A DNA stretch of 64,000 nucleotides, from assembly GCF_900113045.1 (NCBI RefSeq), contig NZ_FONY01000009.1, positions 1-64,000 on the forward strand. The letters are read 5' to 3'. The notes below the pieces were generated by a model that saw only the letters and a program-made list of their open reading frames with translations, did no database searches and had not been told where the DNA came from. Of the stretch, positions 39,850 through 44,658 are shown piece by piece. Both the position numbers and the translations under genes were made by a program. Every line of letters begins with the position of its first letter. Positions within the stretch are counted from its first letter, which is position 1. The stretch is from Thermoflexibacter ruber. GTDB taxonomy: Bacteria > Bacteroidota > Bacteroidia > Cytophagales > Thermoflexibacteraceae.

Positions 39850-42510
39850 TCATACCCTAAACCCTACCACACATATATCGTCTATTTGGCGTGTTTTTCC
39901 TTGCCACTGAGCAAGATTTTCTGCCAAAAGCCGTTCTTGTTCTTGCATAGGCAAATAGTAAATTTGATGCAGAAACTCTCTGAATTTACGAATAGAAAAA
40001 CCTCTACCCTCCGTCCCTCCAAACTGGTCTTGGTAGCCGTCAGTAAAGAGGTAGAAAGTCGTTTTCTCGGATTCATCATTAGGCAAGGAGATTTGTTGCT
40101 TGGTATAATAAACGTCTTGTTTTGTAGTATTACCTCCTATTTCGTAGTGGTCGCCTTTGAGGTAGAATAGTTCTCCATTCTGCACATAAACAATAGGGTT
40201 CTTCGCACCTGCAAACTCTACTTTTCTATTTTCCTTGTCTATCAGCACTATGGCTAAGTCCATGCCGTCCCTATTAGCTGTTTTTTCCTGTTGGAGCGTG
40301 TATTTGATGCCTTTACTTAATTCATTCAAAATGAGTTCGGGGGAATAAATTTTTTTCTCATCTACAATTTCCTTGAGCAAGTTACTCCCAATCAATGACA
40401 TGAAAGCACCGGGTACGCCATGCCCCGTGCAATCCACTACTGAAAAAAGAATACGATTATCTGGAAGCATCCGCAGCCAATAAAAATCTCCACTGATAAT
40501 GTCTTTAGGTCGGAAAAGCAGGCAATACTCTCCAAAAGTAGCTTGCATTTGCTCTGGCAGAGGTAGAATGGAATGTTGTATGCGTTTAGCATAAGTGATG
40601 CTTGCTGTAATATCTCTATTTTTGGCAGCAATAATTTCATTCTGTATGCTTAGTTGGCGAAGGCTACTTTCTAATTGTTCATTAGTTACTAAAAGTTCTT
40701 CGGCATTTTGTCTGATTTCTTCCTCTGAGGTACGTAGCTCCTCGTTAATTTCTTGGATTTGCTTTTGTTGTTTCTCTAAGGTTTTATTTTTTTCTTGGAT
40801 AAGTTTACGTTGCCTATTGGAACGCCTAATCGCCCAAGCCATAATCAACATGATGAGCAGAGCGGCTAAACCTCCTAAATAGACAAAGCGTTCTCGCATC
40901 TTTTGCTCTTGCAATTCTTGCTTTAGCTGTAAATTCCTGATTTGATTTCTATTTCTCTCTAATTCTATCGCTTTTTGCTGTTCCTCTTGCGCTACTTTTT
41001 GCTTTTCTAAGGCTAATTCTTGCATGATTTTTTCCTGATTCAAGGTCAAAATTTGTTGTTTTTGACGCTCTGTTTCAAGGAGCTGCTCGGCAAGGCGAAG
41101 TTGTTGCTCGGCTCTTTCTTTGGCAAGGCGTTGGTTTTTCACGTTGGCTTCGTTCAGTTCACTTTCCTTTTTTAGCAAGGTTAGTTCTTGCTCTTTTTTC
41201 TCTGCCTCTAACAATGCCTGCCTGAGTGCGAGGCTTTGTTTTTCTTTTTCAGACAAAAGCAAGAGCAAATCACTTTCTCTTTCTTGTGCTTCTATACGTT
41301 TTTTCTGAAGATTCTCCTTAGATTTAGTTGCTTGATTTTCAATGATTTTACTATATTCATCTGCTTTTTTGAAAGCATCTTGTGCCGCTTTGAAATCATT
41401 TTGACGATTATACACCTCGCTCAAAATTAAATAGCTATCTTTCAGTTGCTTGTAAGCATTGGCGGGAGTGGCTATTTGGACAGCTTGGTTAGCATATTGG
41501 AGTGCTTGAAAGGGATTTTGACTTAGTAGGCTATTGGCTGCCACTAAATTGTACTTATCTGCCAAATCTTCTGGAATATTTCTTTTTTTCTCTATTTCAA
41601 TAGCTTGTAAGTGGTATTCTTGTGATTTAGTAAAGTTGCCAAGCATAGAGTAGGTTACAGCAATATTGCTTAGGATAGTGGCATCTTTCTGTTTAATTTT
41701 CTCAAAAGTAGCAATAGCAGATTGAAAATAAGCCTCTGATTGAGCCAAATCGCCTTTTTGTCGGTATAAGTAGCCTAAATTTTGTTGCGTAAATGCCAAC
41801 TGATTTATTTGCTTATTTTTCTCATAAATACTGCTTAATTCTTGGGTGTAGTGGATAGCTTCCTCATAGCGTTTTTCAGCGGTGCAAACTACTGCTATTT
41901 TTGTAAGTGCTTCTGTTTCTGTTTTTATGTCATTACTTGCATAGGCAAGATTGACCAATTCTGCATAGTTTTTCTCTGATTCTGCTAATTGCCCGTTTAG
42001 GTAGTAAGTTTCGGATAAAGAAGAAAGTACTTGCTTTTGAAGTTCTATGTTTTCACTTTGTCTGTAATATTGATAGGACTTTTGAAAATACTCTATAGCT
42101 TTTTCATATACTTGATTTTTTTTGTAGATAGAGCCAATATAGTGTTGTAAATCAGCCACTTTTTGATTGTTTTTGTCTTTTTCGTGAAGTGAAAGGGCTT
42201 GTAAGGCATACTCTACAGCCGTTTCATACTCTTGCTTTTGTAAATATAAGTCTGCTATTTTTTGGCACAAACTCCCTATTACGGTTACACTTCCACTCTC
42301 ATCGGTTAAGTCTAAGGCTTGTTTGAAATAAGAAATAGCATTGTCTATCTGGTTAGTTTGCTTGGAGATGGTAGCCAACTGTTCTAAAATCTGCACTTTT
42401 TCTGCTTGGGAGTTAGATTTTTGCAAACGCGCAAGTAACTCTCCTCTGTCTTGGGCATGACACAGGGAAAGGTATAAAATAAAAAACGCTATGAAAAAAA
42501 TATTTTTCAA
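39850..42510 (-). CDS. TPR-SpoIIE (PP2C) signalling phosphatase
   Basis: An 886-aa membrane protein. Signal peptide (ending SLCHAQ), then about 9-10 tetratricopeptide repeats (30-400), a long coiled coil (390-540), one transmembrane helix (about 546-566), another coiled coil, and a SpoIIE-type phosphatase (about 633-886). The catalytic motifs are DIISGDFYW, SVVDCTGHGVPGAF and TDGYQDQFGG. The TPRs face the periplasm if the helix crosses once, so the protein would relay an outside signal to a cytoplasmic phosphatase. Its output module is nearly the same as those at 8687 and 53885. No STAS or anti-sigma partner is adjacent. Confidence 0.92.
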   Translation of the reverse strand: MKNIFFIAFFILYLSLCHAQDRGELLARLQKSNSQAEKVQILEQLATISKQTNQIDNAISYFKQALDLTDESGSVTVIGSLCQKIADLYLQKQEYETAVEYALQALSLHEKDKNNQKVADLQHYIGSIYKKNQVYEKAIEYFQKSYQYYRQSENIELQKQVLSSLSETYYLNGQLAESEKNYAELVNLAYASNDIKTETEALTKIAVVCTAEKRYEEAIHYTQELSSIYEKNKQINQLAFTQQNLGYLYRQKGDLAQSEAYFQSAIATFEKIKQKDATILSNIAVTYSMLGNFTKSQEYHLQAIEIEKKRNIPEDLADKYNLVAANSLLSQNPFQALQYANQAVQIATPANAYKQLKDSYLILSEVYNRQNDFKAAQDAFKKADEYSKIIENQATKSKENLQKKRIEAQERESDLLLLLSEKEKQSLALRQALLEAEKKEQELTLLKKESELNEANVKNQRLAKERAEQQLRLAEQLLETERQKQQILTLNQEKIMQELALEKQKVAQEEQQKAIELERNRNQIRNLQLKQELQEQKMRERFVYLGGLAALLIMLIMAWAIRRSNRQRKLIQEKNKTLEKQQKQIQEINEELRTSEEEIRQNAEELLVTNEQLESSLRQLSIQNEIIAAKNRDITASITYAKRIQHSILPLPEQMQATFGEYCLLFRPKDIISGDFYWLRMLPDNRILFSVVDCTGHGVPGAFMSLIGSNLLKEIVDEKKIYSPELILNELSKGIKYTLQQEKTANRDGMDLAIVLIDKENRKVEFAGAKNPIVYVQNGELFYLKGDHYEIGGNTTKQDVYYTKQQISLPNDESEKTTFYLFTDGYQDQFGGTEGRGFSIRKFREFLHQIYYLPMQEQERLLAENLAQWQGKTRQIDDICVVGFRV

Positions 42511-42641: not shown

Positions 42642-44180
42642 TTAGGTAAGCATCTTTATCTCATTACTAATTCTTTTTACTTGCTCAAAAAACATATAAC
42701 TTTCTAATATTTTATGATTTACCTTAATCTCAAATACATTTTCGCAATGAGAGCAAAGCCATATAAGTAGCTGATACTGGCACTTGCTCATACTCATTTT
42801 TTCTAATTCAAATTCTGAATCTAAGTTCTTGGCTGACTCCACTACCAAGATATGTTGATATTCTTTCAGTTTCAAAATGTCCTCTTTGAACTGAAAAAGG
42901 GCTTGGTGCTTAGTAGGGAGTTTTTTGCGTTCCTTCTTAGACATTTCTAAGTGATTATCTTGCCAATAGAGTTCGTTGTTCAGAAAATCAAAATCATAAT
43001 CTAAGTTTAAAGAATTTTTTTGGTATAACTCATTAGAAATCAGGTCTGCATTTAATAATTCAGATGTACAGTAGGCAAAATAACCTACCCCTGTATCTGC
43101 ACAGCTATTGGGTGTGATAATCAAGTGCTTACTATTCTCTCTGTCTATTCTTGCCCCATAAAGCGTAATATCCTGATAGGCATAGTGTTCTATTAGGTTC
43201 GTGTCCACATATTTTTCATCTTCCGCAGAGTGAACTGCTCTTACCCTGAATCCTTTTTTTCCTTCTAAAATGTTGAAAATATTATTTTCATGGATAAAAA
43301 GTGCATCTTTGAGCGTAAACAAGGTACGGGGTCTTTCAAAAACTTCTACACCAAGTATTTCATTGTGCTTTTTGCGGAAAGCCTCTTTGAGTTTTTGATA
43401 TTGTTTTTGCAATTTATTTTCATCTATGACCTCGATAAATCCCGTAGCGATAATGCCTGTTGGGATAACTACAATACCTATTTTGAGCAAGCCTATGATT
43501 GCCGCAATCAACTTACCCAAAGGAGTAACAGGCATCAGTCCATTTTCTATATGTCCTGTAGCATCATCTACAAAAACAGCAAAAGCCCAAGTCATGGCTG
43601 TAAAAATATCCTTAATTTTAGTTTGTTCACCTCCTACCCCATTGCCAAACTCGAAGTCATTTTCTACTTCATAAAGCAATACAGAAAGAAAAACAGTAGC
43701 TACTATGACGACCAGAGCGGATTTGACTAACTCAGTCTGTTTTTTTATAATTGCCCTAAGAATCAGCTCAATAGAATGGTCGTGCTGAAAAGCTTTGAAT
43801 ATGCGGAGTAAGCGTAGGGTCAGGAAATAATCGTGATGTGCTGTATTGCTCAGCAAGAAAATCATGGGGGGAATAACCGCCGCAAAATCTATAAGTAGGT
43901 AAAAAACAAGTAAAGTCCTCTCCCACTTGCGTCTGTGTCGAATAAAAAGAATATCCAATACAGATAGTTTAGAGAGCAACTCTACCAAAAAAATGATAGT
44001 AACAATGGTTTCAAATGCCTGAAGATTAGGCAAGTAATCCATCGGTAGGATAGTTTCTAAGGTAACTACCAAAGTACTTACCAAGATAGTAGCATAGATA
44101 AAGTTATCTATCTGCTTAGCAATTGGTGTAGTTTTTACGTTCAGGTCAAAAATCTCGGCAATGAGTTGTCTATTTACCAT
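42642..44180 (-). CDS. Ion-transport (VIC) family channel homologue with altered selectivity filter
   Basis: A 512-aa protein whose first 260 residues have the layout of a voltage-gated-type cation channel: six hydrophobic segments, an S4-like TLRLLRIFKAF helix, a pore helix (FTAMTWAFAVF) and S6 (GIVVIPTGIIATGF). In K+ channels the pore helix runs into TVGYGD. Here residues 202-215 are VFVDDATGHIENGL, with the canonical filter missing, while the surrounding VTPLGKLIAAIIGLL is kept. The C-terminal half (260-512) is cytoplasmic and unrecognised. It may conduct another ion or be a regulatory homologue. Confidence 0.75.
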   Translation of the reverse strand: MVNRQLIAEIFDLNVKTTPIAKQIDNFIYATILVSTLVVTLETILPMDYLPNLQAFETIVTIIFLVELLSKLSVLDILFIRHRRKWERTLLVFYLLIDFAAVIPPMIFLLSNTAHHDYFLTLRLLRIFKAFQHDHSIELILRAIIKKQTELVKSALVVIVATVFLSVLLYEVENDFEFGNGVGGEQTKIKDIFTAMTWAFAVFVDDATGHIENGLMPVTPLGKLIAAIIGLLKIGIVVIPTGIIATGFIEVIDENKLQKQYQKLKEAFRKKHNEILGVEVFERPRTLFTLKDALFIHENNIFNILEGKKGFRVRAVHSAEDEKYVDTNLIEHYAYQDITLYGARIDRENSKHLIITPNSCADTGVGYFAYCTSELLNADLISNELYQKNSLNLDYDFDFLNNELYWQDNHLEMSKKERKKLPTKHQALFQFKEDILKLKEYQHILVVESAKNLDSEFELEKMSMSKCQYQLLIWLCSHCENVFEIKVNHKILESYMFFEQVKRISNEIKMLT

Positions 44181-44202: not shown

Positions 44203-44658
44203 TTATAAAAGTCTTCTGTGATAATTGATTTGCCCTAAGTGATAGTCTAAGTGCATAGCCAAATGTATCAAAAAGTAAGAGGTAGGCATTGGGTAGCCAA
44301 AAACTTGTATAGGGTACTCTTGGGCAAGCTGCTCCTCAGTAAGTTGGGGAAGCACCTCTTTGACAACAACAATCGTGCTTTCTATGTCTTTGATAAGCTG
44401 ACTTTGTGGAATATTTTCTGAAGAAAACTCTGCTTCTCTATTTCTTACGAAGCCCGTTTTCCCCAAAATAGCCCCTATAAAATGCCTAAGATTGCCTGTG
44501 AGGTGCAAGCAAAGATTTCCTGCGGAATTATTAATACTTCCGCTTACTTGCCAAAGTTTTTCTTCGCTTTCATAGCTTTGGATTTCTTGTTTCAGTTTGC
44601 TCAAATCTCGCTCGTAGAGCGCAACGAGGTGCTTAATAAGTAGTTCCATGTATGCCAA
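44203..44658 (-). CDS. DinB-superfamily protein
   Basis: A 151-aa four-helix protein of the DinB/YfiT superfamily, often metal-binding thiol-transferases or of unknown function. Histidines at the ends of helices (NLCLHLTGNLRHFIGA near 50-60 and YFLIHLAMHLDYHLGQINYHRRL near the C-terminus) match the metal triad of the family. M4 (position 44649, MELLIKHLV) could be the start. It lies 22 bases downstream of the channel gene's start, with both on the minus strand, so it is upstream of the channel and possibly co-transcribed. The substrate is unknown. Confidence 0.82.
   Translation of the reverse strand: MAYMELLIKHLVALYERDLSKLKQEIQSYESEEKLWQVSGSINNSAGNLCLHLTGNLRHFIGAILGKTGFVRNREAEFSSENIPQSQLIKDIESTIVVVKEVLPQLTEEQLAQEYPIQVFGYPMPTSYFLIHLAMHLDYHLGQINYHRRLL

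Follow-up and report, generated by a model that had tools for sequence, protein, structure and literature searches.

A bacterial clade of six-helix channel homologues with a replaced potassium selectivity filter

Few features of ion channels are as strongly conserved as potassium selectivity. The window analysed here, a stretch of 64,000 nucleotides from Thermoflexibacter ruber, encodes a six-helix channel homologue of Kv type in which the filter loop has been replaced, and so raises the question of what such a protein does: whether it still passes K+, passes other cations, or no longer conducts at all. The features on which the answer draws are as follows.

Positions 1 to 64,000, forward strand: source stretch, Thermoflexibacter ruber, GCF_900113045.1, NZ_FONY01000009.1
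42642..44180, minus strand: whole channel gene, 512 aa, ATG start, six-helix homologue with C-terminal domain
44055..44126, minus strand: S1, residues 19-42, AlphaFold2 model of residues 1-270
Residues 47-73, minus strand: S2, AlphaFold2 model
Residues 85-110, minus strand: S3, AlphaFold2 model
43779..43838, minus strand: S4, residues 115-134, HHDYFLTLRLLRIFKAFQHD (modelled S4 helix 116-133)
Residues 135-146, minus strand: linker, AlphaFold2 model
Residues 148-174, minus strand: S5, AlphaFold2 model
43569..43607, minus strand: pore helix, residues 192-204, AlphaFold2 model
43530..43568, minus strand: replaced selectivity-filter loop, residues 205-217, DDATGHIENGLMP
43431..43523, minus strand: membrane part of S6, residues 220-250 (modelled S6 helix 220-269)
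42645..43430, minus strand: C-terminal domain, residues 251-512, 262 aa

Architecture of the window protein

The open reading frame at 42642-44180 is intact, with no internal stops. Residues 24-223 of the window protein match Pfam Ion_trans (PF00520) at 62 bits (cut-off 25), and this six-helix core above the curated cut-off places the protein in the voltage-gated ion channel superfamily. By sequence, the solved structures closest to it are those of KCNQ and Kv channels (KCNQ3 with E 1.7e-6 by phmmer, among the matches listed), and the structural and sequence matches listed, among the best 50-60, are Kv, KCNQ and MloK1-type chains; no TRP chain appears among the best 60 of 73 chains in the PDB sequence search. 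Two marks of Kv channels are missing, since VDDATGHIENG sits in place of the TxGYGD/TxGFGN filter and the regular S4 basic residues do not extend to the outer ones (positions -9/-6/-3 are A/D/L). The Pfam scan of the window protein returned Ion_trans only, with no cyclic nucleotide-binding domain after S6 (13 C-terminal domain rows gave none either) and no Kir domain; the architecture is six-helix Kv-type and not that of NirBac/KirBac, and the TLESW-type BacNav filter motif is absent from the protein.

An AlphaFold2 model of residues 1-270 from 50 alignment rows (pLDDT 88.8, pTM 0.77) adopts the Kv fold, with pore helix, re-entrant loop and S6. Foldseek matches these residues to Kv4.3 (TM 0.70 by query length), and the best match by VIA is Kv4.2 (7uk5_A, Z 18.3, rmsd 3.6 over 240 aligned residues). 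The blocks covering the filter loop have pLDDT 70 and 76, and the turret ahead of it has 65. Canonical K+ channels make up 47 of the 50 rows and members of the clade described below the other three, so that the model supports the overall fold and not the detail of the loop. The 47 rows derive from 80 viral-contig loci, of which 52 were considered and five dropped for stops or unread letters, and their filters carry no evidence because the search patterns used to collect these loci included TVGYGD. A full-length prediction from three rows (window, L033 and L034) reached pLDDT 34.4 and was unusable. The original prediction was right in that the protein retains a six-helix core, a pore helix and S6.

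The replaced loop and the altered clade

In the phmmer alignment, TIGYGD..KTPKTWEG of KCNQ3 is faced by vddatghieng..mpvtplgk of the window protein; the TVGYGD filter is indeed gone, with VDDATGHIENG aligned over TIGYGD. Nine homologues share the altered loop and form with the window protein a clade of ten from three bacterial families, two in the order (f1 and f14) and one elsewhere in the phylum (f67). The ten loops read VDDATGHIENGL (window), VDDATGHIDGGL, VDDATGHIDAGL, VGDLAGFMESGF, VGDPAGYQENDM, VGDLAGYIESGF, VGDLAGYVEGGF, VNDAIGYQETGL, VNDAIGYQEAGL and FEEVSGFGNF. Measured between the pore-helix Trp and the Pro preceding the start of S6, the window loop is four residues longer than in canonical channels, as are the loops of nine members in all, and the tenth (L009) is two residues longer.

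Residue 206 is an acid in all ten members (D9 E1), and Gly209, W198 and P217 are likewise kept in 10/10. Both Thr at the canonical filter base are missing at the aligned places throughout the clade, and the second filter Gly is missing except in L009. Residue 210 is Y5 H3 F2, and residue 205 is variable (G4 D3 N2 E1), so that of the two aspartates that had been placed facing the pore, and of the DDATGH motif whose conservation had been proposed as a check, the acid at 206 and Gly209 hold across the clade and the acid at 205 does not. The two nearest species (74% and 72% identity to the window protein) have FVDDATGHI letter for letter. With acid 206 and Gly209 present in every member, the replacement is real and no sequencing error. 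Homologues with a normal filter, which had been named as a sign of such an error, do exist in 14 channels that share the C-terminal domain and carry T[IV]GYGD, but all of them lie outside the clade, within which 10/10 members are altered. The mean pairwise identity of the loop is 0.47 in the clade, versus 0.83 for the canonical filter in the canonical clade.

The changes extend to other elements of the membrane part. Counted from R123, S4 positions -9/-6/-3 are x/D/L in all ten members (A/D/L in the window protein), and the same positions are basic in 13 of the 14 canonical channels that carry this C-terminal domain. The inner residues R123, R126 and K129 are retained in 10/10, and among the regions compared S4 shows the strongest conservation within the clade, its mean pairwise identity being 0.87 versus 0.46 over the full protein. 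Every clade member lacks the first Trp of the pore-helix WW pair, which is present in all 23 canonical rows (14 with and nine without the C-terminal domain); residue 233 in S6, a Gly in the same 23 rows, is N6 K4 in the clade, with Lys in the window protein. These changes in S4, the first Trp and the S6 Gly, which the original prediction did not note, bear on gating as much as on selectivity. S6 as a whole remains under similar relative constraint in both groups (identities in S6 and in the full protein are 0.68 and 0.46 in the altered clade, 0.58 and 0.40 in the canonical one).

The loss of S4 charges is not strictly coupled to the odd filter: the outer charges are also missing in the canonical channel L055, and the odd-filter channel L064 retains two of the three basic residues, a K and an R. 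Within the clade, residue 233 tracks residue 205, K233 occurring with an acid at 205 (4/4) and N233 with G or N (6/6). This pairing may represent one evolutionary event, since the four K233 rows cluster in the whole-protein and membrane-part trees (not in the C-domain tree), and K233 may neutralise D205 in the window genus. H115 (10/10), H116 (9/10) and D117 (10/10) are expected at the outer end of S4, where an effect of pH or metal is a matter of speculation. A likeness of the S6 Asn to that of Nav and TRP channels was considered and dropped, as the Asn of L195, a further channel of the same genome, lies by eye several residues further down S6.

The ten altered channels fall on one side of a branch with support of 100/100 in each of three trees, namely the whole-protein tree without filter columns (38 rows), the membrane-part tree without filter columns (38 rows) and the C-domain tree (29 rows); nine of the 17 short channels L016-L032 are included in the first two. 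All ten frames, in three families, are open with no internal stops. Among the three nearest species, the only ones for which it was computed, dN is 0.14-0.20 versus a saturated dS of 1.9-2.6, a dN/dS of about 0.1 or less that indicates purifying selection. This selection in the nearest trio, together with the shared changes, argues that the altered channels gained a new function rather than decayed. A special constraint on the filter at the nucleotide level was also considered and dropped (codon-column shuffling, P 0.27 for 10 codons and 0.19 for 14 codons). In the nearest trio, the lowest synonymous change of any 10-codon stretch falls on the filter (0.12 vs a median of 0.78; codons ~192-211, within 42645-44180); the filter stretch is not the lowest in any of six further groups, two altered and four canonical.

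The C-terminal domain and its other carriers

Residues 251-512 give no convincing match in Pfam, NCBIfam or PDB sequences, and PADLOC returns none for the window protein, in agreement with the earlier description of an unrecognised cytoplasmic domain. PHROGs yields weak matches only, the window row hitting families of unknown function with a best E of 0.0088. No relatives of the domain were found in viral_contigs; the window's version is absent from plasmids and phages and that of L011 from plasmids. Across 21 rows, an R, an E and a G do not vary, and R-x-R, Y-G and S-x-E are almost invariant. A middle stretch present in canonical rows is missing in the window clade, and the canonical rows (nine aligned) exceed that of the window protein by some 35-65 residues.

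A whole-protein search of 98 relatives matched 53, and filters were read in 30 of the loci. Searches with profiles of the domain matched 24 of 390 genomes of the order, 4/395 of the phylum and 4/395 of the class, 10 of 15 in the family of G082 and 3/123 in the order of G661, and a broader profile matched 4/385 genomes of the phylum; these samples overlap, and those of the order, the phylum (395 and 385) and the class include the window's own genome. With L033 and L034 taken as the same loci as L004 and L005 and counted once, and L058 left out as a fragment (a 43-aa open frame with stops), there are 31 usable proteins with the domain, 29 with a channel pore and two without (L056 and L065). The 29 pores comprise 14 with T[IV]GYGD, ten with the window-type loop and five with other odd filters. 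Short channels of 246-330 residues, too short to hold the domain (L016-L032), have GYGD in 17/17.

The 14 canonical channels with the domain (L010-L015, L048, L050-L055 and L059) share with the window protein the six-helix core, an S6 bend of P-x-G type and the domain itself, but differ from it in having T[IV]GYGD (14/14), the WW pair and S6 Gly (14/14) and the three outer S4 basic residues (13/14). Since they have retained the canonical filter, the ancestor of the clade was probably a K+ channel.

Other odd filters occur on the same domain: L064, L086, L009 (inside the clade), L057, L062 and L063 read FIGEIGGYGDFAP, FINDIGGYGFNLP, FFEEVSGFGNFTP, YTGDYGAIAGAVP, LTGSTPQGFEP and YLTTLGGDVYP, respectively. 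Within longer, acid-bearing loops, L064 retains GYGD, L086 GYG and L009 GFG. Such filters are possibly intermediates, or possibly repeated losses. The membrane-part tree places the clade, L057, L063, L064 and L086 on one branch (98/96), the C-domain tree groups L086 with eight canonical channels (99/98), and the supports of the whole-protein tree on the origin of odd filters are 22/20 and 34/78. As the trees disagree and branches are long, domain exchange or convergence among the relatives is possible.

The domain also occurs in other settings. In L065 (G970:C70) it lies behind an HTH_3 domain (E 6.7e-15), in L056 (G177:C13) behind an N-terminus with no significant match and no channel pore, and in L063 and L086 behind S5-S6 alone; tblastn with three channels found no S1-S4 upstream of these two pore-only forms at E below 0.1. 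The domain is thus common to channels with and without a voltage sensor and to a putative DNA-binding regulator, which suggests that it is best read as a sensor of a small-molecule ligand. Its presence on the HTH_3 protein and on the S5-S6-only proteins fits a sensor able to gate without a voltage sensor.

What the altered channels may do

CNG, HCN and TRP channels are six-helix relatives that combine ligand gating with altered filters, those of TRP channels containing GD or GE, and the BacNav/BacCav channels have filters of TLESW/TLEDW type. Unlike CNG and HCN channels, the window protein has no cyclic-nucleotide domain by Pfam. It shares with BacNav/BacCav a bacterial origin, six helices and an acidic residue in the filter, and differs from them in the filter itself, a separate channel of that type (L195, TLEDWPD) being encoded in the same genome. 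Among altered filters in the Kir branch, the NirBac channels have replaced P-loops and conduct cations non-selectively, with TTGTD as the loop of NirBac2.1 (PMC4607889). They are like the altered clade in being K+ channel relatives with a replaced P-loop in an otherwise retained architecture, a likeness of kind and not of descent, and they differ in having a Kir architecture with a Kir C-terminal domain, no voltage sensor and another loop sequence (PMC4607889). TbIRK of Trypanosoma brucei also lacks the signature, as the window protein does, and retains a K+ over Na+ selectivity above 7; it is a eukaryotic Kir-type channel with a predicted GGYVG filter that still prefers K+ (PMC5429665). An altered filter goes with non-selective conduction in NirBac and with K+ selectivity in TbIRK, so the precedents point both ways. 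No account of this channel group was found in the open-licence literature among the matches listed, which is weak evidence of absence.

Our best reading, to which we give a probability of about 0.5, is that the window protein belongs to a Kv-derived bacterial clade of homomeric, ligand-gated, weakly voltage-sensitive cation channels that would have lost K+ selection. Four subunits would assemble as in other Kv-type channels, and a ring of four acids in the loop would attract cations in place of the K+ sites of TxGYG, giving a pore that may be non-selective among monovalent cations or may favour Na+ or Ca2+. With the inner R-R-K alone left in S4, the response to voltage would be weak or nil, and opening would be driven by a cytoplasmic ligand bound to the C-terminal domain. 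The observation made in the original prediction has held, and its interpretation as a channel of new selectivity is partly supported.

This reading is favoured by the ten-member clade at 100/100, purifying selection, the constraint on S6, the x/D/L pattern of S4 and the modelled Kv fold, by the lack of a canonical Kv-type partner in the window genome, and by the non-selective conduction of NirBac's replaced P-loops. Counting against it are a model that leans towards a K+ pore and has the loop among its less confident parts, the non-strict coupling of S4 and filter (L055, L064), the loop identity of 0.47 versus 0.83, the K+ preference of TbIRK without the signature, the possible neutralisation of D205 by K233 in the window genus, and neighbouring genes that are silent on ligand or ion.

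A more far-reaching form of the best reading, which we hold only tentatively, is that a voltage-gated K+ channel may have been independently converted into a ligand-gated Na+/Ca2+ or non-selective channel, by way of a novel filter of acid and glycine and a sensory domain that is likewise new, possible intermediates (FIGEIGGYGD, FINDIGGYGF, FFEEVSGFGN) and pore-only forms persisting in relatives. If true, the conversion would resemble the change seen in CNG and TRP channels, its path could be reconstructed from surviving relatives, and the sensory domain would be one that is also joined to a DNA-binding domain in another protein (L065). The clade has lost the filter and the outer voltage-sensor charges with the rest still selected, and so offers a natural experiment in the change of selectivity and gating; beside it stand the possible intermediates and relatives that share its regulatory domain and have retained filter and charges alike. 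It also brings to light a domain, so far uncharacterised, with a possible role as a sensor.

Among the alternatives, we consider it doubtful that the protein is a non-conducting transducer whose pore loop would be structural and whose membrane part would relay a membrane signal to the C-terminal domain or anchor it. The loop has no known conducting filter motif and shows lower identity in the clade (0.47) than the canonical filter does in its own (0.83), and the domain also sits on a helix-turn-helix protein; yet acid 206, G209, W198 and P217 are kept in 10/10 and S6 retains its constraint, and a voltage-sensing version is made unlikely by the loss of the outer S4 charges themselves. Replaced P-loops do conduct in NirBac (PMC4607889).

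Improbable, in our estimate, is a pore still selective for K+ through an unorthodox filter, in which the G-[HYF] pair and neighbouring carbonyls would stand in for GYG. TbIRK prefers K+ with no signature (PMC5429665), and GYGD in L064, GYG in L086 and GFG in L009 lie within longer acid-bearing loops; against this, the second Gly is gone in the clade except in L009, both filter-base Thr are gone in 10/10, and other residues stand in place of the canonical first Trp and S6 Gly.

We regard as very improbable a modifying subunit that would work only in heteromers with a canonical K+ channel. One genome, G143, does encode both an altered channel (L041) and a canonical one (L059) that share the C-terminal domain, and short canonical Kv channels lie 5.2 kb (G661) and 1.4 kb (G718) from the altered one, but a canonical channel with the same domain accompanies the altered one in only that one of the ten genomes (a count that includes G001, 62% complete), and searches with Ion_trans and Ion_trans_2 found no canonical Kv-type partner in G000, the window's own genome, or in G082. 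Since none was found in its own genome, a heteromer with such a subunit is unlikely for the window protein. The other Ion_trans/Ion_trans_2 matches in G000 are L195, L001 and L002. L195 (G000:C59:76494-77231) is a bacterial Nav/Cav-like channel of TLEDW type whose filter, TLEDWPD, is separated from S6 by a long loop, and L002 is a 199-aa protein with FGYGE. L001 (G000:C120:30419-30634) is an RCK-type two-helix channel with the odd filter STTGMNEV, which recurs in all three genomes of the window genus seen (L001, L179, L180); L177, L189 and L190 of other genera have TVGF[GQS]EV.

A degenerating gene or an error of sequencing or assembly, to which a filter that alone looks broken might point, has next to no probability given ten stop-free frames in three families, the same changed residues in 10/10 and a dN/dS of about 0.1 or less (with saturated dS) among the three nearest species.

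Across 23 stretches compared (the window, L033, L034 and 20 regions), neighbouring genes gave no hint of ligand or ion. A 281-aa gene lies 13 and 43 bases downstream of the channel in L033 and L034 of the window genus, and one gene directly downstream recurs in L070 and L071; neither is found beside the window gene. A DinB/DUF1572-like gene (44203-44658, minus strand) lies 22 bases upstream of the window channel on the same strand and is absent beside the channel in the other 22 stretches. In more than one genus, the channel has a single gene family as its immediate neighbour, coding for a TPR-repeat protein with a SpoIIE phosphatase domain, which adjoins it at two of the ten altered loci (window 39850-42510, minus strand; L066 9647-12232). 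It was set aside as a functional partner because the abundance of SpoIIE leaves chance possible, with 59 matches, strikingly many, in the window genome and 29 in that of L066.
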